A stretch of 64,000 bases of DNA from Sabulicella rubraurantiaca (GTDB taxonomy: Bacteria > Pseudomonadota > Alphaproteobacteria > Acetobacterales > Acetobacteraceae): positions 124,001-188,000 of the forward strand of contig NZ_JAFEUU010000005.1 of assembly GCF_017355885.1 (NCBI RefSeq). The letters are read 5' to 3'. The position numbers and the translations under genes were made by a program. The notes under the pieces were generated by a model. It made no database searches and was not told the DNA's origin. It saw nothing but the letters and a program-made list of their open reading frames with translations. Positions 19,532 to 36,419 of this stretch are shown piece by piece (positions within the stretch are counted from its first letter, which is position 1; every line of letters begins with the position of its first letter).

Positions 19532-20745
19532 TGCGCCGCTGGATGAAGGTCACGCTCGGCGTCGCCCTGGCTGCCATGGCTGGCTACGTCATCGTGGGCG
19601 AACAGATGGCCGGCGTCTCCTCCAATGCCGTGGTGAACGCTCAGGTCATCACCCTGCGCGCCCCCGTGGATGGGGAGCTCACCCTCACCACACGGAGCCT
19701 CGGCGCCCGGCTCGGCTCTGGCGAGGTGGTGGCGAGCATCACCGATCCCCGGCCCGACGAGTCACGACTCGTGGATCTTCGCCGCGCCCTGGATGCGGCG
19801 GAAAGCGAGCTGCGTCGCCTGGAAGACATGACCTCGGCCCTTGTTGCCGGTCGTGCCGCCCTCATTGATCAGGCGCGCGACTATGGTGCGGGGCGGCTGC
19901 GGCAGCTTTCCGCCCGCCTGGACGAGACGCGCGCGACGCTCGAGGCGGCGCAGGCCCGTCTTCGGGAGGCGGACGCCACGCTGCGCCGCGCGAATGACCT
20001 GAGCCGCACCGGCATCCAGACCGTGGCAGAGTTCAACCGTGCCAAGTCCACCTTCGAGGTCGCGACGCAGGAGGTCGAGGCGACGCGCAACCGCCTTCGC
20101 TACCTCACGGTGGAGCACGAGGCGGCCAGCCGTGGCGTGTTCCTCGGCGACAGCTACAACGACGCGCCGTCTTCCCAGCAGCGCGTGCGCGAGCTGGACC
20201 TCCGCATCGGCGAGCTTTCCGCCGAGGTGCGGGAGCGCAACCGCCGCATTTCCCTGCTCGAGCAGCAGGTGGAGGAGGAGCGTGTCCGCCTTGCCCGCCA
20301 CCGCGACGCCCGGTTGGCGGCCCCCGCGACCGCCGTGCTGTGGGAGGTGATGACGGGCAGCGGCGAGTATGTGCGCCGGGCCCAGGACATCATGCGCCTC
20401 GTCGATTGCGGCACGGCGGTGGTCACGGCCAGCGTGCGGGAGAGCGTCTATAACGGCCTGAAGGTCGGCGACGCGGCGCGGGTTCGGCTGCTCGGCGAGG
20501 ACGGCCGGGTCTTCGAGGGCACCGTGGCGCGCCTCGCCGGTTCGGGCGCGGAGACGATCTACCGCCACCTCGCCGTCGGGCCGAGCGAAGAGCACCTGAA
20601 GCGCTACGACGTGGCCATCGCAGTGCCGGGCCTTGCCGCCGACCCCGCCCTGGCCTGCACGGTCGGCCGCACCGGCCGTGTTGTCTTCGCCAGCCGCCCT
20701 CTCGACCCCTGGCGCCGCCTGATGGCCTCCCTCGGCTTCGGCTGA
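19528..20745 (+). CDS. HlyD-type membrane fusion protein, BgsB/Alg44-like
   Basis: 405-residue protein with one N-terminal membrane anchor (about residues 7-24), a lipoyl-like half motif (ITLRAPVDGELTL), long coiled coils at about 85-150 and 180-260, then the second lipoyl half and a beta-barrel segment (TASVRESVYNGLKVGDAARVRL). It starts at GTG 19528 or ATG 19531, overlapping the sensor stop, and lies 30 nt before the GT2 gene. In the S. meliloti mixed-linkage beta-glucan system a membrane fusion protein (BgsB) is paired in the same way with the synthase BgsA. Here it probably guides nascent polysaccharide across the periplasm. Confidence 0.82.
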   Translation: MMRRWMKVTLGVALAAMAGYVIVGEQMAGVSSNAVVNAQVITLRAPVDGELTLTTRSLGARLGSGEVVASITDPRPDESRLVDLRRALDAAESELRRLEDMTSALVAGRAALIDQARDYGAGRLRQLSARLDETRATLEAAQARLREADATLRRANDLSRTGIQTVAEFNRAKSTFEVATQEVEATRNRLRYLTVEHEAASRGVFLGDSYNDAPSSQQRVRELDLRIGELSAEVRERNRRISLLEQQVEEERVRLARHRDARLAAPATAVLWEVMTGSGEYVRRAQDIMRLVDCGTAVVTASVRESVYNGLKVGDAARVRLLGEDGRVFEGTVARLAGSGAETIYRHLAVGPSEEHLKRYDVAIAVPGLAADPALACTVGRTGRVVFASRPLDPWRRLMASLGFG

Positions 20746-20775
20746 GGGCGCGCCGCCGCATCACCGAGGCGTCCG

Positions 20776-22743
20776 ATGCTCGCCCTGGACGATTACATCG
20801 CTTCCCTCGCGCCTTCGCTGCTCGTGCTCGGGCTCGCGCTGGCCGTTCTGCCCTTCCTGCGGCGCGAGGATCCGCTGACGCGCGCGGTGGTCCTCGCTCT
20901 GCCCGTGCTGCTGGCGTGGCGCTATATGGCCTGGCGCTTCGCGGAGACAGTTCCGCCGCTGGACTGGACGCTGGACGCGGCGGCGGGCTGGAGCTTCGCC
21001 TTGCTGGAGGCGGGGACGCTCGTTTCCTCCACCATCGCCTTCGCCATCATGACCCGTACGCGCGACCGTCGGGAGGAGGCGGATCGCCACCAGGAATGGT
21101 GGCGGCCCGGGGCGCCGCCTGTCGTGGACGTGCTGATCGCGACCTATAACGAGGAAGAGCCGATCCTCGAGCGCACGATCGCCGGGGCGCTCGCCCTCAA
21201 TCATCCGCGGACCCGGGTCTGGATCCTGGACGACGGCAAGCGCGACTGGCTGCGGGAGCTGTGTGCCCGGACCGGCGCGCGCTACCTAACGCGCAACGAC
21301 AACGCGCACGCCAAGGCGGGCAACATCAACTCCGCCTTCGCGGTGCTGCGCGGCCTGGACGAGCCACCGGATTTCGTCGCGGTGCTGGACGCGGATTTCG
21401 TGCCGCACCGCAACTTCCTGGATCGCACCCTGACGTTGTTCCATGACGAGCGTGTCGGGCTCGTTCAGACGCCGCAGCACTTCTTCAACCCCGATCCGAT
21501 CCAGCACAATCTCGGCCTTGAGCGCGCCTATCCGGACGAGCAGCGCTTCTTCTTCGACCATGTGCAGCCGGCCCGCGACGCCTGGGACATCGCCTTCTGC
21601 TGCGGCACTTCCTCCGTCATGCGATGGAAGGCGCTGGAGGCGATTGGCGGCTTTCCCGTCGGCAGCGTGACGGAGGACTACCTCATTACCCTGCGCCTTC
21701 GGGAGGAAGGCTATTCCACCGCCTATCTGAACGAGGCGCTGACGGAGGGCCTCGCGCCTGAGGGGTTGGGAGAATACATCACGCAGCGCGGCCGCTGGTG
21801 CCTGGGCCTGATGCAGATCATTCGCGGGCCGATGGGACCCTTCGCGAAGAATCGCCTGCGGCTTCGTGATCGGATCGGGCTGTTCGACAGCTTCCTCTAC
21901 TGGGCCACCACCTATCCCTTCCGCCTGGCCTGCCTCGTGACGCCGCTGCTCTACTGGTATTTCGGCATCACCGTCGTGGATGCCCCGGTGGCGGAGGTCC
22001 TGTCCTACTTCGTGCCCTATCTCCTCGCCGCGCTCATCGCGCTCAACTGGACGTCGCGCGGAATGGTCGTGCCGCTGCTGAACGACGTCAGCCAGGTACT
22101 CGGCGCGCGCGAGATCAGCGGGGCGGTGATGGCCGGGCTCCTGAAGCCGAAGGGTCACAAGTTCAAGGTCACGGCCAAGGGAGGTGACCGCAACCGCGTG
22201 GTGGTGCAATGGCCAGTGCTGCGGCCGCTCCTCGTGCTTTTCATGCTGACCTTCTTTGGCCTGATGTTCATGCCCGTGACGGACATCGTCTTCGATCGCG
22301 ATGCGGGCGACGGGAAATGGGTCATCCTGGTCTGGACCTTATACAACCTCCTCGTCCTGGCGGCTTCCATGGCGGTTTGCGTAGAACTGCCGCGCGGCGG
22401 GAAGGGCACGCGCATCGTGCCCGAGCGCGTGCGGCTTTTCGCGGATTCCGGCGCGAGTGGCGGATGGCTGATGCGCCTGACCCTGGAGGAGGCCTGGATC
22501 ACAGGCGCGCCGGCCCTTCCGCCTGGCGAGCGTTGCGCGTTGGATCTGCCGGGGGCGGGCCATATCGCCGGCGTCGTGGCGCGCCATGACCCCGGCGGCG
22601 TTTCCCTGCGGCTGGAGCCGACAGCGGAGCAGCGCGCCGCAATCCTGACGCGGCTGCACACCCGCGAGGGTGCCAGCGGCGTCACCCGCACGGATGTCGG
22701 TGGAATGGTGCGAGGCTTGGCTGGGCGGGTGGTGCGGAACTGA
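20776..22743 (+). CDS. Cellulose-synthase-like GT2, BgsA-like beta-glucan synthase candidate
   Basis: 655-residue processive inner-membrane GT2. Three N-terminal membrane helices precede the GT domain, with LDDG at 151-154, DAD at 205-207, FCCGTSS at 274-280, TED at 299-301 and QRGRW at 337-341. Four to five helices follow. The final 120 residues look like a PilZ-type barrel (PERVRLFADSG, then LRLEPT) but lack a clear (D/N)xSxxG motif. BgsA of S. meliloti likewise binds c-di-GMP through a C-terminal region without canonical PilZ. GAGG lies 6 nt before the ATG. Together with the fusion protein this favours beta-(1,3)(1,4)-glucan over plain cellulose, as inference. Confidence 0.85.
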   Translation: MLALDDYIASLAPSLLVLGLALAVLPFLRREDPLTRAVVLALPVLLAWRYMAWRFAETVPPLDWTLDAAAGWSFALLEAGTLVSSTIAFAIMTRTRDRREEADRHQEWWRPGAPPVVDVLIATYNEEEPILERTIAGALALNHPRTRVWILDDGKRDWLRELCARTGARYLTRNDNAHAKAGNINSAFAVLRGLDEPPDFVAVLDADFVPHRNFLDRTLTLFHDERVGLVQTPQHFFNPDPIQHNLGLERAYPDEQRFFFDHVQPARDAWDIAFCCGTSSVMRWKALEAIGGFPVGSVTEDYLITLRLREEGYSTAYLNEALTEGLAPEGLGEYITQRGRWCLGLMQIIRGPMGPFAKNRLRLRDRIGLFDSFLYWATTYPFRLACLVTPLLYWYFGITVVDAPVAEVLSYFVPYLLAALIALNWTSRGMVVPLLNDVSQVLGAREISGAVMAGLLKPKGHKFKVTAKGGDRNRVVVQWPVLRPLLVLFMLTFFGLMFMPVTDIVFDRDAGDGKWVILVWTLYNLLVLAASMAVCVELPRGGKGTRIVPERVRLFADSGASGGWLMRLTLEEAWITGAPALPPGERCALDLPGAGHIAGVVARHDPGGVSLRLEPTAEQRAAILTRLHTREGASGVTRTDVGGMVRGLAGRVVRN

Positions 22744-22890: not shown

Positions 22891-23907
22891 TCAGGTGACC
22901 ACTGCGCGATCGACGTCATCCTGCTCCACGGCAGCCGCAGATGGTGTCTCCCGGTGCGCGCTGGCGACGGCATCGATGCATCGTGCAACCAGTTCCGGCG
23001 CACCATGATGCACCATGTGTCCTTGCCCCGGCACCATGTGCAGGGAGCTTCCAGGCACCGCCTGATGCAGCCGCGCCGAGTGCCGCCCCACATCCACGAT
23101 TCCATCGTCTTCGCCGACGACGATGGCGATGGGAAGCTGCGTGATCTCGTGGTACCGCCCCTCGGCATATGCAGCCCAAGGGCTCATGGATGCGGCATCT
23201 TCGGCACTGCCCTTGATCTGCCATGGCCGCAGCATGATCGGTATGGGGACGGCCGCCGTGAAATCGGGCGGCACGGGTGCGGGCGCAAACATCTTCTCGA
23301 TCATCTTGGGGGCAATCAGGCTGCCCAAGAGGGGACCGACCGTATAGCGGATCACATCCCCGACCACGGGAATGGCCGGTGGCGAGAAGAGGGCGATGTC
23401 GGCGCGCGCCGTCGGAAAATAATATCCGGACAGCAGGACCAATCCGGAGATGGCGTCAGGGTGGTTCAGCGCCAAAGCCATCGCCACGAGCGTCCCCCAG
23501 GAATGCCCGACCACGACCGGGCGCTCCACCCCAAGGCGCATGAAGGCCTCGGCGAGGACGGCCGCCTGGGCTTCCGCGGTCCAGAACCGGTCCCGCGGGC
23601 GCTCGCTGTAGCCGTAGCCGGGCCGATCGAAGGCGAGGACCCGGTGGCGCGCGGAGACAAGCCCGAAGACGCCGCTTGCGATCCAATCCTCGGCGGTGAC
23701 GCCGTTGCCGTGCAGCAGGACGACAGGCGGCCCTCCATCCTGTCCGCTCTCCAGGTAGTGAAGCTTGATGCCCCCGGCCCGCACGAAACGCCCTGCTGGC
23801 GGATGAGCCCGCTCAGCCTGCCGGGCGAGAGAGTGGTTCAGGAGGGCGGTGGCCCCGAGGGCGACTGCGCTGGCGGTGACGATGGTCTTTGCGCGAGAGG
23901 AGGCCAT
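22891..23907 (-). CDS. Membrane-anchored alpha/beta hydrolase
   Basis: 338-residue hydrolase with an uncleaved-looking hydrophobic N-terminus (residues 8-23). LLHGNG at 64-69 forms the oxyanion hole and GHSWG places the nucleophile Ser at 136. GEDDGIVD and GQGHMVHHGAPE carry the candidate acid and His. The FDRPGYGYSERP segment near 93-104 is typical of the haloalkane-dehalogenase/epoxide-hydrolase branch, but a Ser nucleophile argues for an esterase or peptidase. It converges on the glucan synthase gene; there is no operon partner. The 147-bp gap to the synthase holds only a short GCAGGCCTGC palindrome. Confidence 0.85.
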   Translation of the reverse strand: MASSRAKTIVTASAVALGATALLNHSLARQAERAHPPAGRFVRAGGIKLHYLESGQDGGPPVVLLHGNGVTAEDWIASGVFGLVSARHRVLAFDRPGYGYSERPRDRFWTAEAQAAVLAEAFMRLGVERPVVVGHSWGTLVAMALALNHPDAISGLVLLSGYYFPTARADIALFSPPAIPVVGDVIRYTVGPLLGSLIAPKMIEKMFAPAPVPPDFTAAVPIPIMLRPWQIKGSAEDAASMSPWAAYAEGRYHEITQLPIAIVVGEDDGIVDVGRHSARLHQAVPGSSLHMVPGQGHMVHHGAPELVARCIDAVASAHRETPSAAAVEQDDVDRAVVT

Positions 23908-24123
23908 GCCTGCTCCTGTGTGTCAGCGACCGCCTCCCAGTCTTGGAGGGAGAGCGATGGCGAGGAAGCGTTTTGATGCGGTGCATCATCCCAACGGGGC
24001 GGTGCCCCACCAGTTTCCCGCTGCGCGACCGCGAGGGACGCACAGCGCCTCTGCGAGGCACTTGGCACATTCAGGGCTGGAATTCCGCCCCGCCGCTTGC
24101 TCAGTCAGCGGTGGGCAGAGCCA

Positions 24124-24330
24124 TCACCCGCCGGAAATGCCCTTGATGACCTTCCCCGAACCGCCGCAATTCTCGCAGACCCGATCCTGAAGCTGGCCTT
24201 TGCCGCCGCATTCCGGGCAGACATCCTCGCCCGTGCCGGGCGTGCCTGCAGGCGCGTCGTCGCCCGGGTAGGTGCCACCCGCGCCCGGAACGCGTGGGTC
24301 CCTGGTCCCCTGAGGCTTGCGCTCATTCAT
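24124..24330 (-). CDS. Small CxxCxGxG zinc-binding protein
   Basis: 68-residue protein with a disordered, Gly/Pro-rich N-terminal half (DPRVPGAGGTYPGDD) and a DnaJ-type zinc finger at the C-terminus: CPECGGKG followed 9 residues later by CENCGGSG. The ATG at 24330 has GGAGGCGGTG directly upstream, which decides against the in-frame ATG at 24348. Similar tiny proteins occur widely in proteobacteria without known function; the two CxxCGGxG knuckles should bind one zinc ion. It is monocistronic, in a region otherwise free of genes from 23908 to 24627. Confidence 0.82.
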   Translation of the reverse strand: MNERKPQGTRDPRVPGAGGTYPGDDAPAGTPGTGEDVCPECGGKGQLQDRVCENCGGSGKVIKGISGG

Positions 24331-24627
24331 CACCGCCTCCTCTGACATCTGAGTGGCGTGCCAACGCGCGCGGTTCGTCACCTGTTGCGACGCTCTGGCA
24401 TCCAGGAACCCAAAGCGCCGGACACCCATCGGCCGAGCCCGCTGGCATGGGGCCGGAGGCTCGCAAAATTGTGCGCCCTCCGCGTCGCGATTGAGACATG
24501 ATGCGGCCATCCCAGGCGAGCCAGGCAGGGAAGGTTCTTCGATGCCGAACAGCCCCGACGGAGCACGGCAAGAGGCCGGAGGAGGGGTGGCCCGATCAAC
24601 GGGCGTCACCCGAGGCGAACTCGGCTG

Positions 24628-26793
24628 ATGGACGGGTCGGGCCGGAGTTCGGGGCTTCTCCGGCGCATGGCGCCGGAATGGAGCCAGGAGGCCGGCGCCG
24701 GGGTGAGCACCGGGCTGGTCGTGGCGGCGCAGAGCCTGACCCATGGCATGGTCGCCTTCGCCCCGCTTGGGGTTGCCGCGGCCGCGACGGGCATGGGGGT
24801 TGCGCTGGCGGTTTCGGCGGCGGCCGGGCTTTGCACCGCGGCGCTGGCCGCGAGCCGCCCCCTGGTCGGGACGACCACCGCAGCCACGGCCCTGGTGACC
24901 GCCTCGGTGCTTGTGACGGCAGAACCGGTTACGCCAGCGGAGGGCATCCTCTTCGCGATGCTGCTCGCGCTGTTGGCGGGGCTTTTCATGTTGGCGATGG
25001 CGCGGAGCGGCATCGCCCGCGTTGCCTCGCACATTCCCACGCCGGTCACGATCGGCATGGCGAATGGGGTGGTCGCGCTGATCTTCGTCGGGCAGGCCCC
25101 GGTCGCCCTCGGCCTCACGCCGGGACAGGCATTCCTTGCGGAGGCGCTCCGTCCGGCCTCACTCGCTGTGGCCGGCGCGGCCTTCGCCCTGATGGCGCGG
25201 CCGGTGCCGCTGTTTCCCGCCCCGATCACCGCACTGGCCGTGGCGACCTTGCTGCATCAGGCCCTTGCAGGCGCTGGCTTCGCGCTCGGGCCGGTGGTCG
25301 GGGCCGCGCCTTCGCCCGCGCACGTTGCCGATGCGGTGCTGGGGGCGATCAGAGCCGCTCCCGCTCTGGCGGATTGGCAGAGGCTTCCGTCGCTTCTCGC
25401 GACCGCGGCGGCGTCGCTCGCCCTTCTCGCGACGACGGAGATCCTGATGGCAGCGGCGGCCCTGCGCGAACGCAGCGGAAGACGCGTGAAGCCGGATCGG
25501 GATGTCATGGGCGGCGGGGCTGCCATGCTGGCCGGCGGCATGCTCGGCGGCCTGCCCGCCAGCGCCCTGACCAGCGCCTCGGTGGCGTGCCATGACTTGG
25601 GCGGACGTGGACGACCGGCGATGCTGACGCGGGCTATGGTCGCCCTCCTGGCGCTGGCCTTTGCGGGGCCACTCATTGCCATGCTGCCCTTTGCTGCCCT
25701 GGCGGGCGTGCTGATGGGGGCGGTGTTGCGGCTCCTCAAGTTGCGGCCGCTCTTTCCCAAGGCGGGGCCGGGCCGTGTGCGCCGGTCAGCCGACGCCGCG
25801 GTCATTGCCGCCGTCGTCGCGGTGGCGCTGCTATTCGGCCTGATCGCGGCCATCGCTGCCGGCGTCGTCATCTCCATCGGCATCTTCACCCTGGCCATGT
25901 CCCGGTCCGCCATCCGACGGAGCACGCGCAATCCGGTAGGCCGATCGCGCGTGCGGCGGCCAGCCGAGGACGAGGAATTGCTTCGCGAGGCCGGCGACCG
26001 CATCGTCGTGCTCGAACTGCAGGGCGCGACTTTCTTCGGCAGCGGCGAGGGGATCCTGCTGCAGATCGAGCAGCTTCTCGCAGCCGGCGCGAAGCTCGTC
26101 ATCCTCGATCTGAGCCGCGTGACCTGGGTCGACCTCTCCGGCGCGCAACGCCTGCTGGAAGCATGCCGCGCCTGGCCGAGCCGCGTTCTGCTCGCACCGC
26201 TTCATCCGGGAAGCGGGGCGGAGGCGGAATTCGAGGCATACGGGCTGCGGGCCGCCATTCCGCGTGGCGCTGGCTTCGAAAGCCTCGCAGCGGCCGTCGA
26301 GGCGGCGGAGGAACAACTGCTGCGAAGCTTGCGGCCGGAACGCCCCTCGGCCCGCAGCGCAAGCGAGGCCTTGCACGCCCTGGGCCTGCCGCCGTCTGCC
26401 GAGGAGTTCTTGCTGGCGAGAATGCAGGAAATCGATTTTGCGGCCGGCACCATGATCCTGCGCGCGGGCGACCCGGCAGATGCGGTCTACATACTCCTCG
26501 AAGGCCAGGTCGTCGTCAGCTTGCCCGCCGCCGCCAACCGACCCGCGACGCGGCTTGCCGTGCTGGCGCCCGGCATCGTCTTTGGCGAGTCGGCATTGCT
26601 GGGAGCCGCGCGCCGCTCCGCAGACGCCACGGCACGGCAGGACGTGCGCTGCCTGCGCATCACGGTGGCTGACGTGCAGTCTCTCAGGGAGGCCAGCCTG
26701 GAGGTGGCTTGGTTGTTCATGACGGCGGTCCTGCGCCAGCTGGCGAGCAATGTCGCAGCCGCGAACGCCACGATCGACCGGCTTGAGGAGTGA
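24628..26793 (+). CDS. SulP-family anion transporter fused to STAS and cyclic-nucleotide-binding domains
   Basis: 721-residue fusion. Residues about 20-420 form a SulP/SLC26-type membrane domain with 10-14 helices and the characteristic AAQSLTHGMVAFAPLG and GGLPASALTSASVA segments. A STAS domain follows at about 450-550 (LVILDLSRVTWVDLSGAQ). A cyclic-nucleotide-binding domain spans about 590-710. Its phosphate-binding cassette FGESALL...RRSADATA (E654, R663) retains the residues needed to bind cAMP or cGMP. SulP proteins carry sulfate, bicarbonate, dicarboxylates or other anions; no substrate is evident. The next gene on the strand encodes a nucleotide cyclase, so direct gating by its product is likely. 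Confidence 0.9.
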   Translation: MDGSGRSSGLLRRMAPEWSQEAGAGVSTGLVVAAQSLTHGMVAFAPLGVAAAATGMGVALAVSAAAGLCTAALAASRPLVGTTTAATALVTASVLVTAEPVTPAEGILFAMLLALLAGLFMLAMARSGIARVASHIPTPVTIGMANGVVALIFVGQAPVALGLTPGQAFLAEALRPASLAVAGAAFALMARPVPLFPAPITALAVATLLHQALAGAGFALGPVVGAAPSPAHVADAVLGAIRAAPALADWQRLPSLLATAAASLALLATTEILMAAAALRERSGRRVKPDRDVMGGGAAMLAGGMLGGLPASALTSASVACHDLGGRGRPAMLTRAMVALLALAFAGPLIAMLPFAALAGVLMGAVLRLLKLRPLFPKAGPGRVRRSADAAVIAAVVAVALLFGLIAAIAAGVVISIGIFTLAMSRSAIRRSTRNPVGRSRVRRPAEDEELLREAGDRIVVLELQGATFFGSGEGILLQIEQLLAAGAKLVILDLSRVTWVDLSGAQRLLEACRAWPSRVLLAPLHPGSGAEAEFEAYGLRAAIPRGAGFESLAAAVEAAEEQLLRSLRPERPSARSASEALHALGLPPSAEEFLLARMQEIDFAAGTMILRAGDPADAVYILLEGQVVVSLPAAANRPATRLAVLAPGIVFGESALLGAARRSADATARQDVRCLRITVADVQSLREASLEVAWLFMTAVLRQLASNVAAANATIDRLEE

Positions 26794-26941
26794 TCCGGCC
26801 CGCGAAGGGCCTCGATGGCTCGCTCGGCAGCCGGCCCTTCATGCCGGGACATGAGAAATCATGGACCGATGTCACAGCGGGGCTTACGGTTCCCGCACCG
26901 GGGCGGCACCGCCGCTGAGATGCGAGAGAGGAGCGGCCGGT

Positions 26942-29900
26942 ATGGAGCGCCTCGCAGGACAGGATCTCCGGTTCCCCCCGGGAGCACCGGTGCCGATCGC
27001 GCAGGCACCTGGTACTGGGGACGGAGGCGAGGAGTTGCTCGCGCTGCTGTGGCTCGACGTGGCGGGATCGTCACGCATCGCCGGCAGCCTGATCGAGCAG
27101 GGCCCCGCGGGTGTCGAGCATTTGGCCGAACTTCTCGGGCAGCACTTCAACACCCTCCTGGAAGCCATCGCGGCCCATGGCGGCGAGCCCCTGGTCTTCG
27201 TGGGAGACGGGCTCCTTTCCGCATGGCGATGCACGGAGGGCAGCGCCCAGGATGCCGTGCTGCGCGCCGCGCGCTGCGCCGTTTCGATCCTGTCCGCGCC
27301 GACCGCCATGGTCATGCCGGACCAGCCGCTCGAACTCCACGCGGTGCTGTCGCTCGGGCCGTGCCGCCTCGTGGAGATGGAGGCAGGGACGCATCGGCAT
27401 CGCGTGACCGTGGGCGCCGGGATTGCTGATCTGCAGGCCACGTCGCGCCACCGCGCCCTTGGCCGCCTGCTGTTGTCCCCGCAAGCCGAGCAGGCCCTGG
27501 ATGGCCGGGCCGAGACTCAGCCCGTGGGGGGAGGCGGCACGATCCTCATCGGCCTTCGCGATCCAGCGCCTCCGCTTCCTGCGACGGCGTCGGTGCCCGG
27601 CCAGCGAAGCCGGCCGACGGATTGGTCGGCAGAGCTGCGCCAAGTAGCAGCTGTCTTCGGGACCTTTCCGGGCCTGGATTGCAGGGCCGAGGACATCATG
27701 GCGAGGCTGGCCGCGATTGGCGATGTCATCTCGGGCTCCGTCCGCCGCCATGACGGCATCCTCCAGAAATTCTGGCTCGACGAGAGCGGCGTCCGGCTGT
27801 TGGTCCTCTTCGGCGTCGCATCGGCCTCCCATCCGGATGACGCGGCAAGGGCGGTCCGCTTCGCGCTTGAGGCGAGGGATGAGCTACGGCGCCTTGGCTA
27901 TCGGAGCAGCTTCGGTGTCACCATGGGACGCAGCTTCTGCGGCACGATCGGCAACGAGGCGTTCCATGCCTGGACCGCCTATGGCGGCTCCCTGAATCTC
28001 GCGGCACGGCTTGCCGGTGTGCAGCAGGGAACCATCCAGTGCGACGAGGCGACGGCACGTCTCGCGAAGGGCAGCCTGGAATTCGTGAAGCTCGGGCAAT
28101 TCCAACTAAAGGGATTTGCCGCGGCGGTGCCCGCCTATACGCCGCGCCGCCTGGACCGGGCGGAACCGGCCATGCCCTTGTGCGGACGGGAAGCCGAACT
28201 GGCAGTCCTGCTGGATGCCTTGCGGGCGGTCGGCGAAGGGCTTGGCCGTGCCGTGCTGATCGAGGCCGAGTCCGGCATGGGCAAGTCTCGCCTGCTGGCG
28301 GAGCTCCAATCCCACCCCGCCAGCCAAGGCTTCCGCACGCTCGTCGCGCAGGCCGACCGGATCGAGCAGGGCGTGCCATTCCGTGGCTGGAGCGGCATCG
28401 CGGCGCAACTCCTGGGATTGTCGGCAAGGACGAACCCCTCATTCCAGCGGGATTCCGTGCTCGAAGCCCTCGGACCGGAGGATGCGCCGCAGGCCGCCCT
28501 GCTCAACGACGTCCTGCATCTCGGCTTTGCCGAAACGGCGGCGACGACATCCATGTCGCCGCCCCAACGGGTCCAGCGCCGGCACCAGATGCTGCTGGGG
28601 CTGCTGCGACGCGTGGCCGCCGAGCACCCGCTGCTGGTGATCCTGGAGGATGCACACTGGCTCGACGCGGAAAGCTGGAGGCTTGTCGAGGATGCCGCGC
28701 GCGGCGTGCCCGGGCTCTGCCTCGTCCTCGCGATGCAGCCGCTCGAGGATCCCACACGCCTGCAATCCATGGCGGAGAACGGCGCCGTCCGGCTGGGCCT
28801 GAGCGACCTCTCCCCGGACCAGCAGGCGCAGATCGCGCTTGCCCGACTGGGGGCCAAGACAATTGCCCCAGGCGCCGTGGCCCTCCTGTGCAACCATGCA
28901 CGCGGCCACCCCTTCCTGTGCCTCGAACTCGCGCAGGCGCTCCGCGATGAGGGGCTGATCGACGTGAGCGGCGGCGAGATCCGCGTGGCGGCGGGTGTCG
29001 ACCTGACGCATGTCCCGCTCCCACAAACTCTGCACGGCATGCTCACCCGCCGCATGGACCGCCTCGAGCCCGAGAGCCTGCTGACGCTGAAGGTCGCGAG
29101 TGCCGCCGGACTCCGCTTTCCCGTCTGCCTCGTCGCGGCCGTCCATCCCACCGAGCGCGCGCGGCACGCGACCGTCGAGGGCCACCTCCTGCGCCATCAC
29201 AGGGCCGGACTGCTGCTGCCCGACCGCAACGAGGACCAGGATGGATACGCCTTCCGCCATGGCATGATGCGTGAAGCCGCGTATGCGCTGATGCTCTATA
29301 GCCAGCGCCGCCCACTGCACAGGGCGATCGCGGCCTGGCATGAGACCACCCATGGCGCGGATCTGGCGCGCTTCTATGCCCTGCTGGCCCATCACTGGGA
29401 GGCAGCCTGCGAGCCGGGAAGGGCGGCGCATTACCTCCGCCTGGAAGCGGAGCGCGTCTTCGGCATGGGCCTCGTGCGCCGCTCCGTGGAGATCGGGCGG
29501 GAAGCGGCGAAGCTCCTCGGGCAGGAACTGCCCGCCGACAGCCCGGCCATCCAGCAGCAGATCGGCGCAGAGATGGAGAGGATCGCCCGGCTGCTGGGCG
29601 ACCGCAGGCCGGAGGACGTGCTGGACCTGCCGCCGATCGAGGATCAGCAGGCCGCGCAGCTCATCCACCTGCTGCTCGTGCTGGCGCCCTTCGCCCATCA
29701 GAGCGAGCAGCTGGAACTCTTTGGCCTCCTCGGCTGCATCTGTCTGCGACTGACGCTAGAGCACGGGCAGGGACCGCTCACGCCGGATGTCTGTTCCATG
29801 TTCTCGGTCGTGTCGGGCGCCCTGACTGGCGACAGGGAGAATGCAGCCGCCTGGAGCCGAGTCGGCCTCACCCTGCTGGGGGATCACCGCGGAGCAAGCT

Positions 29901-30847
29901 TCGCGCGCTGCGCCTTCATCCATGCCTGGTTCCATAACCACTGGATCGAGCCCCTGCGTGGCGGGATCGACCTTGCCGGCGCCGGGGCCGAGGCAGGACT
30001 TGGCGACAACGAAACCATTTTCGGCTGCTTCAACCTGTCCGCTGCCCTGGTGCTGCGCGCGGCGGCAGGCGAGGCCCTGCCGGAGATCCTCGCCGAATCG
30101 CGGCGGAGCGCGGAGTGCAACGGCCGCCGCGTGCTGAACGCGCATTACCACCTCGCGCTGGAGCAGCAATTCGCCAAGGCCATGGCCGGCCTCACCGAGG
30201 GGCTGCTGCTGCTGGGCGACGCGGAATGCGACGCCGCGGCGGAGCTGGACAGCATCCTGGAAACCAACCTCAGCAACCAGATCGGCTATTACCTCGTCAC
30301 CCAGGCCAAGTTGCACGTCCACGCGGGCGAGTGGGCCAGGGCGCTTGCATGGGCAGAGCGGGCGAGACCCATGCTGCCCTTCTTCCTGGGCCAGTCAGCC
30401 GAGTTCGAGCTGGCGCAGTACCGTGGCCTCGCGGCGCTGGCGGAAGCCGCCTTCGGCACGCCGCAGGACCGAACCGCGCTGGTCGATGATGGCTGGGACT
30501 GCACCGAGCAGCTTCGCTTCTGGGAGGCCCGCAACCCCGGAATCTTCGGCCACAAGGCCGATCTGCTCGACGGGCTGCTTCACGTGACATCGGGGCGCGG
30601 CGCCGAGGCCGTGCGCCTGCTCGAAGCAGCGTTCGAGCGCGCTTCGGCCGGACAGTTCCACCAGGATGCTGGATTGGCGGCGGAGTATCTCGCCAGGCTG
30701 CATCGGGCCAATGGAGATGTGGCCAGCACGACCCGAGCCGCCCGGCTGGCCTGCGATGCCTACCGACGCTGGGGCGCCACAGCAAAGATCGCCTTCATGG
30801 AACGGGATTTCGGGCTTCCGGCGGCAGCCGGGGAGCCGGCTGCCTAG
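26942..30847 (+). CDS. Soluble-adenylyl-cyclase-like class III cyclase with AAA ATPase and long helical-repeat tail
   Basis: 1301-residue cytoplasmic protein starting at ATG 26942 (GGAG upstream). Two cyclase homology domains come first. C1 (about 33-205) has both metal Asp (LDVAGSS D39, GDGLLS D89). C2 (about 230-405) lacks the first Asp but has LQKFWLDESG (K276), T345 and LNLAARLAG (N352, R356). This is the one-active-site C1/C2 division of mammalian sAC, with Thr in place of the purine-binding Asp. An AAA/NACHT-like ATPase follows (Walker A ESGMGKSR near 443-450, Walker B LLVILEDAHWLD near 565), then about 500 residues of TPR-like helices. It lies 148 nt after the SulP-CNB gene. Confidence 0.9.
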   Translation: MERLAGQDLRFPPGAPVPIAQAPGTGDGGEELLALLWLDVAGSSRIAGSLIEQGPAGVEHLAELLGQHFNTLLEAIAAHGGEPLVFVGDGLLSAWRCTEGSAQDAVLRAARCAVSILSAPTAMVMPDQPLELHAVLSLGPCRLVEMEAGTHRHRVTVGAGIADLQATSRHRALGRLLLSPQAEQALDGRAETQPVGGGGTILIGLRDPAPPLPATASVPGQRSRPTDWSAELRQVAAVFGTFPGLDCRAEDIMARLAAIGDVISGSVRRHDGILQKFWLDESGVRLLVLFGVASASHPDDAARAVRFALEARDELRRLGYRSSFGVTMGRSFCGTIGNEAFHAWTAYGGSLNLAARLAGVQQGTIQCDEATARLAKGSLEFVKLGQFQLKGFAAAVPAYTPRRLDRAEPAMPLCGREAELAVLLDALRAVGEGLGRAVLIEAESGMGKSRLLAELQSHPASQGFRTLVAQADRIEQGVPFRGWSGIAAQLLGLSARTNPSFQRDSVLEALGPEDAPQAALLNDVLHLGFAETAATTSMSPPQRVQRRHQMLLGLLRRVAAEHPLLVILEDAHWLDAESWRLVEDAARGVPGLCLVLAMQPLEDPTRLQSMAENGAVRLGLSDLSPDQQAQIALARLGAKTIAPGAVALLCNHARGHPFLCLELAQALRDEGLIDVSGGEIRVAAGVDLTHVPLPQTLHGMLTRRMDRLEPESLLTLKVASAAGLRFPVCLVAAVHPTERARHATVEGHLLRHHRAGLLLPDRNEDQDGYAFRHGMMREAAYALMLYSQRRPLHRAIAAWHETTHGADLARFYALLAHHWEAACEPGRAAHYLRLEAERVFGMGLVRRSVEIGREAAKLLGQELPADSPAIQQQIGAEMERIARLLGDRRPEDVLDLPPIEDQQAAQLIHLLLVLAPFAHQSEQLELFGLLGCICLRLTLEHGQGPLTPDVCSMFSVVSGALTGDRENAAAWSRVGLTLLGDHRGASFARCAFIHAWFHNHWIEPLRGGIDLAGAGAEAGLGDNETIFGCFNLSAALVLRAAAGEALPEILAESRRSAECNGRRVLNAHYHLALEQQFAKAMAGLTEGLLLLGDAECDAAAELDSILETNLSNQIGYYLVTQAKLHVHAGEWARALAWAERARPMLPFFLGQSAEFELAQYRGLAALAEAAFGTPQDRTALVDDGWDCTEQLRFWEARNPGIFGHKADLLDGLLHVTSGRGAEAVRLLEAAFERASAGQFHQDAGLAAEYLARLHRANGDVASTTRAARLACDAYRRWGATAKIAFMERDFGLPAAAGEPAA

Positions 30848-30853
30848 CCGCCT

Positions 30854-31894
30854 TCACTTGCCCGGCCGCGCACGTCGCAGCAGCAGCGCGTGCGCATGCA
30901 TGTCGGGTGCCAGCGACAGCGCGACGGTCCAGGGCGTGCTGCTCACTGCGTCCAGCAGGGAGAGATTCACCGGGATGTTCGCGACGGTCATGTTGCCGTA
31001 GCGGAGGAGCGTGTCGAACAGCAGGGCAGGCGCGACCGCCTGCCGCCACATGTCGAGAAGCTTTTGCGACACTTGATGGCAGATCAGAGTGACATCGGAG
31101 GAGGCGATGCCCTGTCGCTGCATCACGCGCTGCGCGGCCTGCAACGCGATGCCGCCGCCGAAGATGGGGAAGTTGGTCAGCCCCTCTGCGGAGATATGGA
31201 AATAGGGGCCTGTCCAGTCCTGTGCCTTCGGGTCGAAGCGGTCTTGCGCGGGCGGGGAGGGCGGGGAGCCCGGGATGGCCCGCCAGTCGCCGGTCAGCAC
31301 CATCTCCCCGAAATTTCCTTCACGGGTTACCACCGCGCTATCCGCCAGTTCCCAGCGCGGTTCCTTGCCCGAGGGCGCGAAGCCCAGCACGGCGGCGGCG
31401 GCACCATCGCCAACGCTCGCCGCCTGGGGCGTGTGGTAGTCCACGGCCCTGGTCCAGCCGCCGCCGACCGCGACCAGCACCTTTCGCGCCCGGCCCGATC
31501 GCAGCAGCGCGTCAGCGAGCGCGACGCCGACATTGAAGTTCGAGAAGTCATTCGCGAGCGGAATGGTGAGGCAGTCATCCGTCAGCCCGAGGCGCGCGGC
31601 CAACGCGAAGAGGTCGGAGGGAACCTCATATGTGCTAGGCGAGACGCAGCCGATGAGATGGTCGATCTCGCCGGGCTCGGCTCCAGCGTCGTCCAGCGCC
31701 ATGCGCGCCGCCGGAAGAAGGATATCGAGGACGCTTTCGTTCGGCGCCAGAACGTGCCGCTCGCCATAGCCGACGAACAGGCCCGATCCGGAGGGGCTGT
31801 TCTTCTTGAGCCAGTCGAAGATCGGGTCGTCATTGCCGCGGATGAGGTCGGGCAGCTTGTGGGCCAGCCCAATGATGCCAATGCGCCCCGTCAT
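30854..31894 (-). CDS. KAS III/FabH-like thiolase-fold protein lacking the active-site Cys
   Basis: 346-residue protein of the 3-oxoacyl-ACP synthase III fold. It keeps the FabH-type VGDGAAAAVLGF segment (161-172), the active-site His in LICHQVSQKLLD (H273) and the Asn in RYGNMTVANIP (N301). Where FabH has AAC-x-GF, this protein reads LANDFSNF (113-120), so the nucleophilic Cys is missing. It may act as an acyltransferase, a decarboxylase, a dimer partner or a non-chain-elongating enzyme, as do other Cys-less KAS III homologues. The ATG at 31894 overlaps the FAD-oxidase stop (TGATG), so expression is coupled. It converges on the cyclase gene with a 6-nt gap. Confidence 0.8.
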   Translation of the reverse strand: MTGRIGIIGLAHKLPDLIRGNDDPIFDWLKKNSPSGSGLFVGYGERHVLAPNESVLDILLPAARMALDDAGAEPGEIDHLIGCVSPSTYEVPSDLFALAARLGLTDDCLTIPLANDFSNFNVGVALADALLRSGRARKVLVAVGGGWTRAVDYHTPQAASVGDGAAAAVLGFAPSGKEPRWELADSAVVTREGNFGEMVLTGDWRAIPGSPPSPPAQDRFDPKAQDWTGPYFHISAEGLTNFPIFGGGIALQAAQRVMQRQGIASSDVTLICHQVSQKLLDMWRQAVAPALLFDTLLRYGNMTVANIPVNLSLLDAVSSTPWTVALSLAPDMHAHALLLRRARPGK

Positions 31895-33591
31895 CACGGC
31901 AGCTCCAGCGCGGGCAGGCCCAGCCGTTTCTGCAGCACGATCTCGGCCGTCTGCAGCGCCCCCTCGACCCAGGTCTGGTTGGTCGAGTAGGCCTCGCCAC
32001 ACAGATAGCAGGGAAACCCGTCGAGGGGCTGCGTCATGCGCGGCATCATCTCGTCCGAGAAGAAATTGGGATTCCACAGGTGGACGCCGCCACCATAGGG
32101 GTCGCGCCCCCAATCCATGTAGGCGGCGTCGATCGGCTCGGGGGCGGTGTCCACCCCGTGCATCAGCATCAGCTGGCGGTGCATCTCGCGCACCATCGGC
32201 GCCGTCGCCGTGTGGCCTGTCCAGTTGCGCTGGAGCAGGGCCGCATACTCATCCCCGGGGGCCGTTGCCTCCGGCGCGGGCGAGCGTGGGAAGAGTGGCC
32301 AGTGGTGGTGGTGATGCGTCGCGCCAGGGTGACGGCTGGCCTTCTGGACCTCCCGCCTTGTGTCGAGGCCGCTCCAGAAGCTGACATTGAGCAAGTCGTC
32401 ATAGGCCATCAGCAGGCCTGGTTCCGAAGGCTTCGGCACGCCGGTGCCATCGGGGCCGGAGGGCCAGTAGTAGCATTGGCGCAAGGGCATGTCGGTCAAG
32501 GAGCGCCCTTTGGTGACGCCGGCCTGCTGCCACCAGCATTGCGGATACAGCAGGAAGAGCTTGAATAATGGGATGGCGGTAACGGAAGCGAGTGCCTGCC
32601 GGAATGCCATGTTGGACGGCCCCAGGACCTCTCCCTCCGGCCGCAGCAATTCGATCGAACGGCGAGGCATGGCGAGGATCACGGCCCGAGCAGTGACATC
32701 GCTGCCGTCACGGAAGCGGAGCCTTACGCCCTGCGGCCCATCCGCCAGCCCATGAGCCCCGAAGCCTTCCAGCCAGGTCCCAAAGCGGACCTCGCCGCCC
32801 GCCTGCTGGAAGCGCTGCTGCAACTGCCAGGGGACGGCCTCGTAGCCGTCATTCACCATGCGGTAGCTGACGCCAGGAACGAAGTCGAAGAAGGCGGCAG
32901 TCAGGTCCAGAGCGTTGCTGTTGCCGCCCAGGCAGTCATAGCCGATCGTTGTGCGCGCCGCGACGTAGCCATCCGGGCTCATCCCCTCCGCCAGCAAGTT
33001 CCAGAAGCCGTGCCGCCAGAGAGGCAGGCCGCCGACCTGCACCGAGGCCAGGTATTCGCGCAGCGTCCCTGCCTGGAGCCTGGCGAGGACATCTGGCATC
33101 AGCCGCGTCAGCACGCGCTGGATCAGCGCCGACGGGGTCTGATCCGGCCCAGTTCGCGCCGCGAGCCACGCTGCTTCCTCGGGCGAGAACCAGAAGGGAA
33201 GCGGAGCGGGGCTGGCGAGGTCACGGCTCCGCAGCAGCCGTCCGCGCAGGAAGGCGATGTTAGCGTCCACCGCAACGACCTGTTCGTGGAAGGGGAGGCG
33301 CAGAACACGCTCCACCAGGGCAGTGACCAGCTTCTGCGCCGGCGCCACGTAGCGCATCCCGCCCAGCTCCGCCGTGGTGTCGGCCATGTGCGGAGATCGG
33401 CCGGATAGCAGGCGCCCCCCGATGCGGTCGCTGCCCTCGAAGAGCGCGACCTTGATCGGTCCGTCGCGCTTCTGGGCCCATTCGGCCGGCTGCGAGCTTC
33501 CGAGCGGAGAGGCGAGAAGCCGCCAGCCGGCATAGATGCCGCTGATGCCGCCGCCGATGATCGCCACGTCAACATCAGGCTCGTTAGCCAT
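31894..33591 (-). CDS. FAD-dependent amine oxidase-like flavoprotein
   Basis: 565-residue flavoprotein. The dinucleotide-binding motif DVAIIGGGISGIYAGWRL is at residues 8-25, followed by FEGSDRIGGRL near 51-61 and AELGGMRYV near 74-82, as in L-amino-acid and monoamine oxidases. The C-terminal FAD motif GEAYSTNQTWVEGALQTAE is also present. A run of five histidines occurs in a Pro/Ala-rich insert near residue 430. It is the middle gene between a ThDP enzyme and a KAS III-like gene. Oxidation of an amino acid or amine in a small biosynthetic pathway is plausible; the substrate is unknown. Confidence 0.85.
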   Translation of the reverse strand: MANEPDVDVAIIGGGISGIYAGWRLLASPLGSSQPAEWAQKRDGPIKVALFEGSDRIGGRLLSGRSPHMADTTAELGGMRYVAPAQKLVTALVERVLRLPFHEQVVAVDANIAFLRGRLLRSRDLASPAPLPFWFSPEEAAWLAARTGPDQTPSALIQRVLTRLMPDVLARLQAGTLREYLASVQVGGLPLWRHGFWNLLAEGMSPDGYVAARTTIGYDCLGGNSNALDLTAAFFDFVPGVSYRMVNDGYEAVPWQLQQRFQQAGGEVRFGTWLEGFGAHGLADGPQGVRLRFRDGSDVTARAVILAMPRRSIELLRPEGEVLGPSNMAFRQALASVTAIPLFKLFLLYPQCWWQQAGVTKGRSLTDMPLRQCYYWPSGPDGTGVPKPSEPGLLMAYDDLLNVSFWSGLDTRREVQKASRHPGATHHHHHWPLFPRSPAPEATAPGDEYAALLQRNWTGHTATAPMVREMHRQLMLMHGVDTAPEPIDAAYMDWGRDPYGGGVHLWNPNFFSDEMMPRMTQPLDGFPCYLCGEAYSTNQTWVEGALQTAEIVLQKRLGLPALELP

Positions 33592-33621
33592 CGCAATCCT
33601 CGCCTTGCCGGAGAACAGGGA

Positions 33622-35412
33622 TCACTCGACCTTTGGCTGCCAGTAGGGTGCCGCGTAGTAGGGCGGTGCCGCGGCGGTATCGATGTGCGCGACGACGACC
33701 TGAGGCTTGCCAGCGGCGGCTCCCTGGACGAGCTGCGGCCAGGCCAGATGGAGATCCTCAGGATTGCGCACATCCCAGGCCTCGGCGCCAAGGCCGCGCG
33801 CGGTGGCGGCCAGATCCGAACCACCCAGGGGATAGGGCCTTCCGGCGGCGGGGTCCGTGCTGAACAGCGCCGCCATGCCCTGCGAGACCATGCTGAGGTT
33901 GTTGTCCGCCAGCACGACCCAGACAGCGCCGATGCCGCGGGCTGCGGCAGTCGAAATCTCGCCGAGATGCATCAGAAAGGCGCCGTCCCCGGTGAGCGCG
34001 ACGCACAGGCGGTCCGGGCAGCCATGGCGCGCGCCGATGACGGCGCAGGTGCCGAAGCCCATCGGCCCCATGGACAGTGCGCTGTGGAATTCCTGCCGAC
34101 GGTCGATCACCAGGTAGTGAAGCGCCCATCCCACGCAGTTCCCGCTATCCACAAAGACCAGCGCGTCCTCCGGCAGCAACTTATTGAGGGACCGGCAGAG
34201 CGCAGCAGGATGCAGCGGCGTGCCCTGGGCTTCGTAATCGGTGGGCGCGATGAACGGCGAATGCTGTTCCTTCAGCGCTGCTAGTGATTGGCGGCGCTGC
34301 TCGATGGTGCCCACATCCCTGGGCCACGCGGCTGCCTGGTCCCAAAGCGCGCGGAGAAAGGCGCCGGCCTCGGCCACGATGCCTTCGGTGACGGGAAAGC
34401 CGCGGCCAATCCGCGCGGCATCGGCATCCACCTGTATCAGCGGGCCTTGTGGCATCAGCATGGGGTTCCAGCGATAGGTCGCCAGTTCGCCAAGCGACGA
34501 GCCTAGGACAAGGAGAGCGTCATGCGCCGCACCGCCACTGGATGTGGTCATCCAGTATTGCGGCCACATGCAGCCCGCGAAGCCGTAGCTTCTCAGGGAG
34601 AGTGGGTGGCTCTCCGGGAAAACGCCCTTTCCGTCCGAGGTGGTCATCGCCGGGATCTGCCACCACTCGACGAAGCGTCGGAGTGCCCGTGCCGTTTCGG
34701 CGTCGCGCAGCGCCGCGCGGCAGCCGCTTCCGAGCAGCAGCAAGGGCCGCTTTGCCGCTGCCAGCGCTCCCAGCACGCGCCGCACTGCGGGGGTGGGGGC
34801 GTCGTCCGGGGGTGCGGATCGATAGGCGCGCGGACTGGCGGGAGGGCGTGGCGAAAGGGAAGGCGCTTGCTGCGCGGCCGCGACATTGTCGGGAATGCCG
34901 AGACGGACGGCGCGGCGCGGCAGGGCGAGCGCGGTCCGCAACGCCTCCTCGATCAACGTTGGCGCACTGGTCGGGTCGGGGATATCGGCGCTGAAGGCCG
35001 TGGCAGCGGCATAGAGGTCGCGAAGATTGAGACCGCAATCCGTGCCATCCTGGAGATAGCCGCGCCCTAGGAAGACCTCCGCCACTTCGCCCGTCAGCAC
35101 CACGACGGCCGAGCCGCTGGCTTGCGCATTCATCGCGCCGGTCAGGGCATTGGTGCCGCCCGGCCCGCTGGTGACGAGGACCACGCACAGACGGCCCGTG
35201 GCCCGGAAATACCCGTCCGCCATATAGGCGGCGCCGGTCTCGTGCCGGCTGACGACATAGTCGAAGTCGCCGCGCTGATTCACCCGTTCGAGGAGATGGG
35301 CAATCCCGCCGCCCGGTATCCCGAAAAGTGTCCTTGCGCCCTCAAGGGCCAAGTAATCCAAAAGTTGGTCGGCGACGGTCGGAGAAGCATTCGCCGCAGG
35401 CGGCGTCGACAT
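33622..35412 (-). CDS. Thiamine-diphosphate-dependent enzyme (acetolactate synthase/benzoylformate decarboxylase type)
   Basis: 596-residue ThDP enzyme. The N-terminal PYR domain has the activating Glu in SRHETGAAYMADGY (E58). A central TPP-enzyme-M domain follows, and the C-terminal PP domain carries the metal/ThDP motif GDGAFLMHLGE...ADNN at about 475-505. ATG 35412 is chosen because it has AGGAAAG upstream and gives the usual length. No regulatory subunit (IlvN) is adjacent, and the FAD oxidase begins 30 nt downstream, so branched-chain synthesis is unlikely. A 2-keto-acid decarboxylase or carboligase role is more probable. It is the first gene of the ThDP-FAD-KAS III operon; an IS element ends 144 nt upstream. 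Confidence 0.85.
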   Translation of the reverse strand: MSTPPAANASPTVADQLLDYLALEGARTLFGIPGGGIAHLLERVNQRGDFDYVVSRHETGAAYMADGYFRATGRLCVVLVTSGPGGTNALTGAMNAQASGSAVVVLTGEVAEVFLGRGYLQDGTDCGLNLRDLYAAATAFSADIPDPTSAPTLIEEALRTALALPRRAVRLGIPDNVAAAQQAPSLSPRPPASPRAYRSAPPDDAPTPAVRRVLGALAAAKRPLLLLGSGCRAALRDAETARALRRFVEWWQIPAMTTSDGKGVFPESHPLSLRSYGFAGCMWPQYWMTTSSGGAAHDALLVLGSSLGELATYRWNPMLMPQGPLIQVDADAARIGRGFPVTEGIVAEAGAFLRALWDQAAAWPRDVGTIEQRRQSLAALKEQHSPFIAPTDYEAQGTPLHPAALCRSLNKLLPEDALVFVDSGNCVGWALHYLVIDRRQEFHSALSMGPMGFGTCAVIGARHGCPDRLCVALTGDGAFLMHLGEISTAAARGIGAVWVVLADNNLSMVSQGMAALFSTDPAAGRPYPLGGSDLAATARGLGAEAWDVRNPEDLHLAWPQLVQGAAAGKPQVVVAHIDTAAAPPYYAAPYWQPKVE

Positions 35413-35556
35413 GGCTGGCTGATCTTTCCTGCCGCTGGATGCCTGCCGCCATATGAGCATCCCGCAGAACCATGCGCCATGAAATAATGACAAGGACTGT
35501 GGGCGGTGATGCCCCATGCCGAGTGGCGGCCGCATGTTCCACCGGAGGCCCGCTAG

Positions 35557-36415
35557 GTCGCGTGGACAAACTGGCGGCTGGGGGATTCCCAGCTGACCGC
35601 GGACGTGATTCCAAGCTGATCTTTGGCATGGAGATCGGCGTTGATCCGTGGGCTGCTGACGGATGAGGAATGGTCCTTCTTCGAACCTTTCGTGGTGTCA
35701 GCCAGTCCGTTGGGCGGCCGGCCAGCGCGCAGCCACCGGCGAGTGCTCGACGCCATCTTTTGGATCGCGCGCACCGGCGCGCCGTGGCGTGACCTGCCAT
35801 CCGAGCTGGGCCACTGGAACTCGGTGTTCCGCCAGTTTCGGCGCTGGACTGCCTCGGGCCTCTGGGACGTGATGCTCGAGGCCTTGGCCGATGGCGGCGG
35901 GCAGGCCGACCTCCTGCAGATGATCGACAGCACCAGCATCCGGGCGCATCACTGCGCCGCCGGCGGAAGGGGGGGACTCATCGAGCGGGTCTGGGGCGCT
36001 CGCGAGGTGGCTTCACGAGCAAGCTCCACATCCGCAGCAACGCGTATGGCCTGCCCATCGCCTTGCATATGACCGCCGGGCAGGAAGCCGACTGCTCGAA
36101 CTACGACGCGTTGATGGCGGCGCGTGACAGTGATCCTGCCATCATGCTCGGCGACAAAGGCTATGACAGCGACCTGATCCGGCAAGATCTGCGCGACCGT
36201 GGCGCTGTGCCAGAGATCCCAACCAAGCGGAACCGCCATGTCCAGCACAGTGTCAGCCGTCCGCTCTACGCGCTGCGCAGCCGTATCGAGTGCTTCATCA
36301 ACCGTCTTAAAAACAGCCGCCGCGTCGCCACCCGCTACGATCAGACCAGCGACAGCTTCGTCGGCTTCGCCGCCCTGTCCTCAATCCGCCTCTGGATGAG
36401 GTTTGTCCACGCACC
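35557..36415 (+). mobile_element. IS5-family insertion sequence with terminal inverted repeats
   Basis: 859-bp element flanked on both sides by CTAG (35553-35556 and 36416-36419), fitting the YTAR-type target of IS5-like elements. The termini are inverted repeats: left GTCGCGTGGACAAAC, right (reverse complement) GGTGCGTGGACAAAC, 13 of 15 identical. It encodes one DDE transposase split over two frames. The flanks (35413-35552 and 36420-36614) show no coding continuity, so it seems to have landed in an intergenic or already decayed region between the ThDP operon and the NTF2-like gene. Confidence 0.88.
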
Positions 36416-36419
36416 CTAG
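35641..36419 (+). CDS. IS5-family DDE transposase in two frames (-1 frameshift)
   Basis: The N-terminal frame (through 36072; start probably TTG 35641, possibly TTG 35623) carries LLTDEEWSFFEPFV, GAPWRDLPSELGHWNSV and the first catalytic Asp in MIDSTSIRAH. The C-terminal frame continues as KGGTHRAGLGRSRGGFTSKLH from near 35967 and holds the second Asp in LGDKGYDSD and the Glu in RSRIECFINRLKN. The join needs a -1 shift at the seven-G tract at 35969-35975, typical of programmed frameshifting in this family. The TAG stop is formed by the right-hand CTAG flank. All three DDE residues survive, so the element may be active. Confidence 0.85.

Follow-up and report, generated by a model that had tools for sequence, protein, structure and literature searches.

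A SulP-STAS-cNMP transporter beside a soluble-adenylyl-cyclase-like protein in Sabulicella rubraurantiaca: a putative circuit with a probably exchanged cyclase partner

The genome of Sabulicella rubraurantiaca (Acetobacteraceae) encodes, next to each other, a predicted SulP-type anion transporter with a C-terminal cyclic-nucleotide-binding (cNMP) domain and a protein resembling soluble adenylyl cyclase (sAC). The two genes lie at 24628..30847 of the window, a term used here for the whole 64,000-nucleotide stretch analysed (contig NZ_JAFEUU010000005.1, positions 124,001 to 188,000). A first-pass annotation proposed that they form a local circuit in which the cyclase acts on the transporter. With moderate confidence, we favour a reading in which this dedicated cyclase makes cyclic AMP (cAMP) that binds and regulates the transporter, and in which a two-component cyclase was swapped for the sAC-like one. 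The anatomy of the two proteins, their residue patterns and the recurrence of cyclases of different kinds beside related transporters speak for such a circuit, whereas the exact pair is not conserved.

The transporter matches three Pfam models above gathering, namely Sulfate_transp (9.1e-17), STAS (3.1e-6) and cNMP_binding (1.3e-16). Its Sulfate_transp core and STAS domain place it in the SulP/SLC26 class, anion transport itself being predicted, and it misses the cut-off of the NCBIfam sulP model TIGR00815 (101 vs 380 bits). A Foldseek search with its structure model (predicted local distance difference test, pLDDT, 85.7) led to the SLC26 family, including the membrane-domain entries SLC26Dg 5iof (target-normalised TM-score, TMt, 0.77) and BicA 6ki1 (TMt 0.80-0.81); among solved structures, the membrane core is most closely related to SLC26Dg, prestin and BicA. 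By its sequence, the cNMP domain has the residue pattern for cyclic-nucleotide binding, and E654 and R663 of its phosphate-binding cassette are present at the numbers given in the first-pass annotation. The G-E and R of this cassette are kept in 99 of 123 related transporters (20 of the 21 linked to a cyclase within 3 kb, and 79 of the 102 others). The window genome has five cNMP domains, among which the transporter's scores best and is the sole one without HTH_Crp_2; the other four belong to Crp-type regulators combining a cNMP domain with a helix-turn-helix (HTH) domain.

The second protein is identified, from sequence and structure modelling, as a sAC-like protein with paired C1 and C2 domains. 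Only AAA_16 passes its cut-off in Pfam (2.1e-21), and Guanylate_cyc is not listed. A phmmer search against solved structures ranked human sAC first (E 1.5e-22), with query residues 63-224 and 255-426 aligned to both cyclase domains. An AlphaFold model of residues 51-440, built on a six-sequence alignment (mean pLDDT 83.7), was searched against the PDB, and ranks 1-24 were all human sAC entries (query-normalised TM-score, TMq, 0.83, up to 0.84). The two-domain class III cyclase described in the first-pass annotation is thus borne out, its domains moving from residues 1-405 to about 60-430. A match of residues 310-856 to the TOMM kinase/cyclase fusion model TIGR03903 (E 1.2e-41) was rejected at 142.6 bits against a cut-off of 705.75.

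Excerpts of two papers describe the catalytic roles of the human sAC residues (PMC12250328; PMC12867704). Human D47, D99, K334, T405, N412 and R416 correspond to D66, D116, K303, T372, N379 and R383 of the window cyclase, so that six of the seven catalytic positions compared are kept (both C1 aspartates and the K, T, N and R of C2). T372 is the counterpart of the adenine-contacting threonine of human sAC. On this pattern the cyclase looks catalytically competent, which falls short of proof.

Cyclase genes recur beside related transporters. A scan of named genomes (the named scan) supplied 80 loci, the best of 92 that were confirmed. Their flanks were searched with a cyclase profile built from three sequences verified in Pfam, and distances were measured from the matched part of the transporter. 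A cyclase gene lay within 3 kb in 20 of the 80 loci, which are not independent events because the rows are related, and anywhere in the flank in 22. Chance would give about 1 in 80, from 270 PF00211 matches in 231.8 Mb; this figure is a lower bound and low by some factor, since PF00211 is less sensitive than the flank profile (it misses the window's own cyclase) and the 50 of 80 genomes used include every linked one. Flanks of 3 kb on both sides were available at 46 of the 80 loci, 14 of them linked. Of the 20 linked cyclases, some upstream and some downstream, 14 share the transporter's strand and six are on the opposite one. The transporter has a cNMP domain in the same open reading frame (ORF) at 19 of the 20 linked loci (L135 lacks it) and at 76 of all 80. 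In five genomes (G689, G692, G693, G712 and G730) the lone PF00211 match is the transporter's neighbour, about 4 kb away in G730.

All ten linked cyclases checked with Pfam (seven from the named scan and three from an even phylum sample) have Guanylate_cyc above gathering, and their architectures vary, comprising response regulator (RR)-cyclase homology domain (CHD), CHD-AAA-TPR, SAM-CHD-AAA, CHASE2-CHD and CHD-FGE. CHD-AAA cyclases stand beside the transporter at L093, L107, L114, L119, L122 and L142. The nearest parallel to the window is L107, from a betaproteobacterium, where a sAC-like cyclase with two cyclase domains by profile is divergently adjacent to a SulP-cNMP transporter; TPR repeats are called in its tail, in the region corresponding to the window protein's tail (28718..30844), which has no Pfam match. 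At L134 (7387-9003, a Hyphomonadaceae genome) the neighbour of a SulP-cNMP transporter is a cyclase joined to an FGE-sulfatase domain. Downstream of the SulP-cNMP transporter of Actibacterium naphthalenivorans DSM 105040 (L126, 8966-16445) come a Tll0287-like protein, a hybrid histidine kinase, a receiver and, 4.0 kb away, an RR-cyclase that is the only PF00211 match of that genome. Cyclase linkage is a recurrent minority arrangement, concentrated in certain clades.

The closest relatives of the window transporter have a cyclase of another kind. The family sample comprised 299 genomes including the window's own, and the first look scored two to three candidates per genome, so a copy could be missed. 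Close cyclase copies were found in G053 (51% identity) and G059 (49%), and close transporter copies (53-61%) in G171, G244, G050 and G176. In these last four the gene directly before the transporter encodes a receiver domain fused to Guanylate_cyc (an RR-cyclase), as Pfam shows for L043 and L045. The order at L045 is a dCache-HAMP histidine kinase, a lone receiver, ABC_sub_bind genes and then the RR-cyclase; local profiles give the same order at L042 and L044, and at L043 up to the contig end. Seven close relatives appeared in the named scan, five of which have an RR-cyclase directly upstream (L062, L063, L065, L066 and L067), ending 0-33 bases from the matched part of the transporter. Four of the seven, and four of the five RR-linked contigs, are shared with the family sample and therefore are not new evidence; Pfam was run on two of the five, as L043 and L045 (the latter the same contig as L063). 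Six aligned RR-cyclases (these five and L071) all keep the two aspartates, K, N and R, and five keep the T, which is A in L071. Conserved co-occurrence in Acetobacteraceae, the check suggested by the first-pass annotation, fails for the exact pair and holds in a looser form, as adjacency with a different cyclase.

A 123-row tree groups the window transporter with three RR-cyclase-linked ones (Shimodaira-Hasegawa-like approximate likelihood-ratio test, SH-aLRT, 98), inside an eight-row clade in which five rows are RR-linked, and a careful 21-row tree repeats the grouping (bootstrap 97, SH-aLRT 98). Holding L062, L065 and L066 together without the window was not rejected (p 0.298). The linked or unlinked label changes at least 12 times among 93 rows (21 linked; unlinked short-contig rows excluded), and adjacency has therefore been gained or lost many times. 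Among the tree labels, AAAcyc includes L197 (CHASE2-CHD by Pfam) and L156 (plain CHD), and cyc includes L122 (CHD-AAA by Pfam). The PF00211 search of the window genome (5.0 Mb, assembly 99.2% complete) found no RR-cyclase fusion, its single match, L001, being one other cyclase without a Response_reg domain. The simplest reading of this distribution is that the cyclase partner changed while transporter-cyclase adjacency was kept or regained.

In the proposed scheme, a cytosolic signal would be sensed by the AAA nucleoside triphosphatase (NTPase) and repeat tail, leading the sAC-like cyclase to catalyse formation of a product that is presumably cAMP. This would bind the cNMP domain at the transporter C-terminus, which would act through the adjoining STAS domain to gate the transporter and change, in one direction or the other, the flux of a putative anion substrate. 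In relatives of the transporter this output would be unchanged, the input being supplied by a sensor histidine kinase together with a response-regulator/cyclase fusion, and in the window lineage the sAC-like cyclase would have replaced the RR-cyclase. Candidate signals include a protein partner, nucleotide state or pH, the last because excerpts of one study report that some animal sAC proteins without the bicarbonate site respond to it (PMC12867704). More broadly, SulP-STAS-cNMP proteins may be widespread cAMP-gated bacterial anion transporters, many with a dedicated cyclase whose input module (receiver, CHASE2, SAM or AAA/repeat tail) is exchanged while the output stays; we hold this tentatively, at slightly under even chances. 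The suggestion that the window is an instance of that exchange, with a relative of animal sAC as the swapped-in input, is offered just as tentatively.

Several observations weigh against this reading. In the first look, with its two to three scored candidates per genome, close copies of both genes were seen in just one of the 299 family genomes, the window's own, and G053 and G059, which have the close cyclase orthologs, gave no transporter match. Within the same transporter clade, no cyclase was found near the transporter in Chelatococcus (L068) or on the short contig L064. A tree constrained to keep the window apart from the RR-linked rows, with L064 counted among them, was worse by 26.8 log units (approximately unbiased, AU, test p 0.038), and with Chelatococcus kept inside it was worse by 21.6 (AU p 0.056), so that nesting of the window among these rows is likely rather than certain. 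This judgement makes no use of a constraint that united the five RR rows (p 1.8e-5), since that group is interrupted by L064 as well.

The signal is weaker in wider sampling. The even phylum sample covered 397 genomes and yielded, among the matches listed, 73 loci each reaching the cNMP end; four matches that were strong but shorter (G312, G374, G365 and G452) were excluded, as was an additional one in the G530 region. A cyclase lay within 3 kb in 3 of these 73 loci and in 0 of 47 controls, the controls being some of the listed SulP matches that stop before the cNMP domain, and the difference is not significant alone. Both 3 kb flanks were available for 54 of the 73 (3 linked) and 42 of the 47, and across all 47 control stretches the profile found no cyclase at all. 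At the level of residues, human sAC K144 aligns with V162 of the window protein, the alignment being weak there; K144 is listed as a pyrophosphate receptor in Table 1 of PMC12867704, which in the excerpt does not demonstrate it as required of every member. The same excerpt reports that neutral substitutions of K95 and R176 in human sAC lower catalytic activity as well as the bicarbonate response. These residue-level points reduced our confidence slightly. Moreover, C2 residues have been lost from both close cyclase orthologs, namely K, T and N from G053 and K and T from G059, and this branch may therefore include non-cyclising members.

These losses, together with the V162 position and the silence of Pfam on cyclase domains in the window protein, would suit an alternative in which the second protein belongs to the STAND-type NTPases that act in signalling and its cyclase module is degenerate and non-cyclising, the neighbours being linked by another route. 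Against it stand the six catalytic positions and the paired sAC fold retained in the window protein, and we regard this alternative as improbable. A real cyclase could instead supply cAMP for global signalling by way of a Crp-type regulator, and its proximity to the transporter would then be incidental or a matter of co-regulation. The four Crp-type regulators of the window genome are alternative possible cAMP targets, and the lack of conservation of the exact pair points the same way, as does the G053 cyclase ortholog (L056, 7668-12568), a possible non-cyclising sAC relative that lies divergent to a Crp-like regulator with cNMP and HTH domains. However, adjacency recurs with unlike cyclases, and two known cyclase genes in 5.0 Mb would put one beside the transporter by chance about 0.4% of the time. 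This explanation seems unlikely to us, and a cyclase dedicated to the transporter remains the reading we prefer.

The first-pass annotation also raised a carbonate-cAMP feedback loop, in which the sAC-like cyclase would be activated by bicarbonate that the transporter carries. Bicarbonate carriers exist among SulP proteins, and the sAC-like fold and T372 would suit such a loop. It is not supported here because both bicarbonate-binding positions are replaced: K95 and R176 of human sAC are the neutral V112 and Q192 in the window cyclase, and neither K nor R occupies these positions in five other bacterial sAC-like proteins aligned. In excerpts of PMC12867704, animal sAC with neutral residues at this site is not controlled by bicarbonate but can be pH-responsive; the roles of the bicarbonate residues are also treated in an excerpt of PMC12250328. 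The window cyclase is thus probably not bicarbonate-gated. For the transporter, BicA identity was rejected (50.8 bits against the 880 cut-off of the NCBIfam equivalog NF050096). Allowing one residue for chain numbering, BicA D258 and T262, residues with a sodium role, align with E271 and A275, a replacement that does not favour sodium-bicarbonate transport of the BicA type; among the 123 related transporters the E271 position is D in 55 cases and E in 44. Carbonate feedback is accordingly judged highly improbable.

Both ORFs are open on the + strand, and ORF, Pfam and sAC matches together confirm the adjacent same-strand transporter and cyclase genes reported earlier (Table 1). The cyclase ORF has 1328 residues counted from 26861, the numbering used for all cyclase residues here. 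The true start is probably the ATG at residue 28, since AGAGGAG lies 8 bases upstream of it, which makes the intergenic gap 148 bases rather than 67. A simple scan over 23900-31000 turned up neither a terminator-like site between the two genes nor a sigma-70-type promoter-like site.

Table 1. Features of the transporter-cyclase locus (window coordinates).
Feature	Coordinates	Strand	Details
SulP-STAS-cNMP anion transporter, P0001	24628..26793	+	721 aa; Pfam domains, structure model, Foldseek
Membrane core	24685..25902	+	about residues 20-425, limits approximate; sequence and structure matches
STAS domain	25996..26247	+	about residues 457-540; PF01740 457-514; PF13466 477-540 below its cut-off
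Cyclic-nucleotide-binding domain (predicted)	26425..26697	+	about residues 600-690; PF00027 603-688, 60.7 bits vs gathering 27.5
Phosphate-binding cassette G653 E654 ... R663 S664 A665	26584..26622	+	G-E and R kept in most related transporters
sAC-like adenylyl cyclase (predicted), P0002	26942..30847, ORF opens 26861	+	1301 aa from likely start
Cyclase domain C1	27038..27550	+	metal aspartates D66 (27056), D116 (27206); bicarbonate positions V112 (27194), Q192 (27434)
Cyclase domain C2	27623..28150	+	K303 (27767), T372 (27974), N379 (27995), R383 (28007)
AAA_16 NTPase domain	28175..28708	+	77.6 bits; Walker A GMGKSR (K475)
Long C-terminal tail	28718..30844	+	probably helical repeats; presumed input region

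The genus distribution of the pair and its flanking genes suggests that the pair sits in an accessory stretch. At E 1e-20, relatives of the upstream neighbour, a hydrolase gene, occur in 9 of 21 genomes of the genus when the window's own is counted (identity in G248 is 81%). The ketosynthase-like gene on the downstream side matches in 1 of 21, the window's own. The six same-genus genomes of the family sample gave no match for either the transporter or the cyclase. Genes for ketosynthase-III-like, amine-oxidase-like and thiamine-diphosphate enzymes lie at 30854-35535 on the - strand, convergent toward the cyclase, and a short DDE transposase ORF (Pfam DDE_Tnp_1; 36063-36419) is probably an insertion-sequence remnant. 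At 18401-22743 (+), a protein with a weak dCache match (below cut-off), an HlyD-like protein and a cellulose-synthase-like glycosyltransferase are encoded in a row, perhaps an exopolysaccharide unit.

Direct cyclic-nucleotide control of membrane transport proteins is best known from channels. No published cyclase linked to a SulP-STAS-cNMP transporter was found among titles and abstract openings of the open-licence literature. If the proposed circuit is real, a SulP/SLC26 carrier paired with a dedicated cyclase would offer a compact model for messenger action by way of the STAS region, a feature shared with human SLC26 proteins. Replacement of the cyclase beside a constant transporter would be a natural experiment in modular signalling, and a bacterial sAC relative without the bicarbonate site would help to ask what else sAC-type enzymes sense.

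Among known systems, human sAC (ADCY10) shares with the window protein a one-chain C1-C2 pair and the six catalytic positions, and is its best solved match in both sequence and predicted fold. The human enzyme also has a long NTPase/repeat tail. The window protein differs in being bacterial and in its K95/R176 to V/Q and K144 to V replacements. SulP/SLC26 proteins (SLC26Dg, BicA and the SLC26A family) have the same membrane core and STAS domain, whereas the window transporter has an extra C-terminal cNMP domain and falls below the NCBIfam sulP and BicA cut-offs. MloK1 (mll3241), a cyclic-nucleotide-gated potassium channel, is likewise a bacterial membrane transport protein with a cNMP domain (domain sequence match 4muv, E 3.8e-9), but it is a channel and the window protein a SulP carrier. 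The RR-cyclase operons (L062, L063, L065, L066, L067 and L126) come with the same SulP-STAS-cNMP output near a class III cyclase; their input is a histidine kinase (of dCache type at L045, which is the L063 contig, and beside a Tll0287-like protein at L126) with a receiver domain, in contrast to the AAA/repeat tail of the window cyclase.

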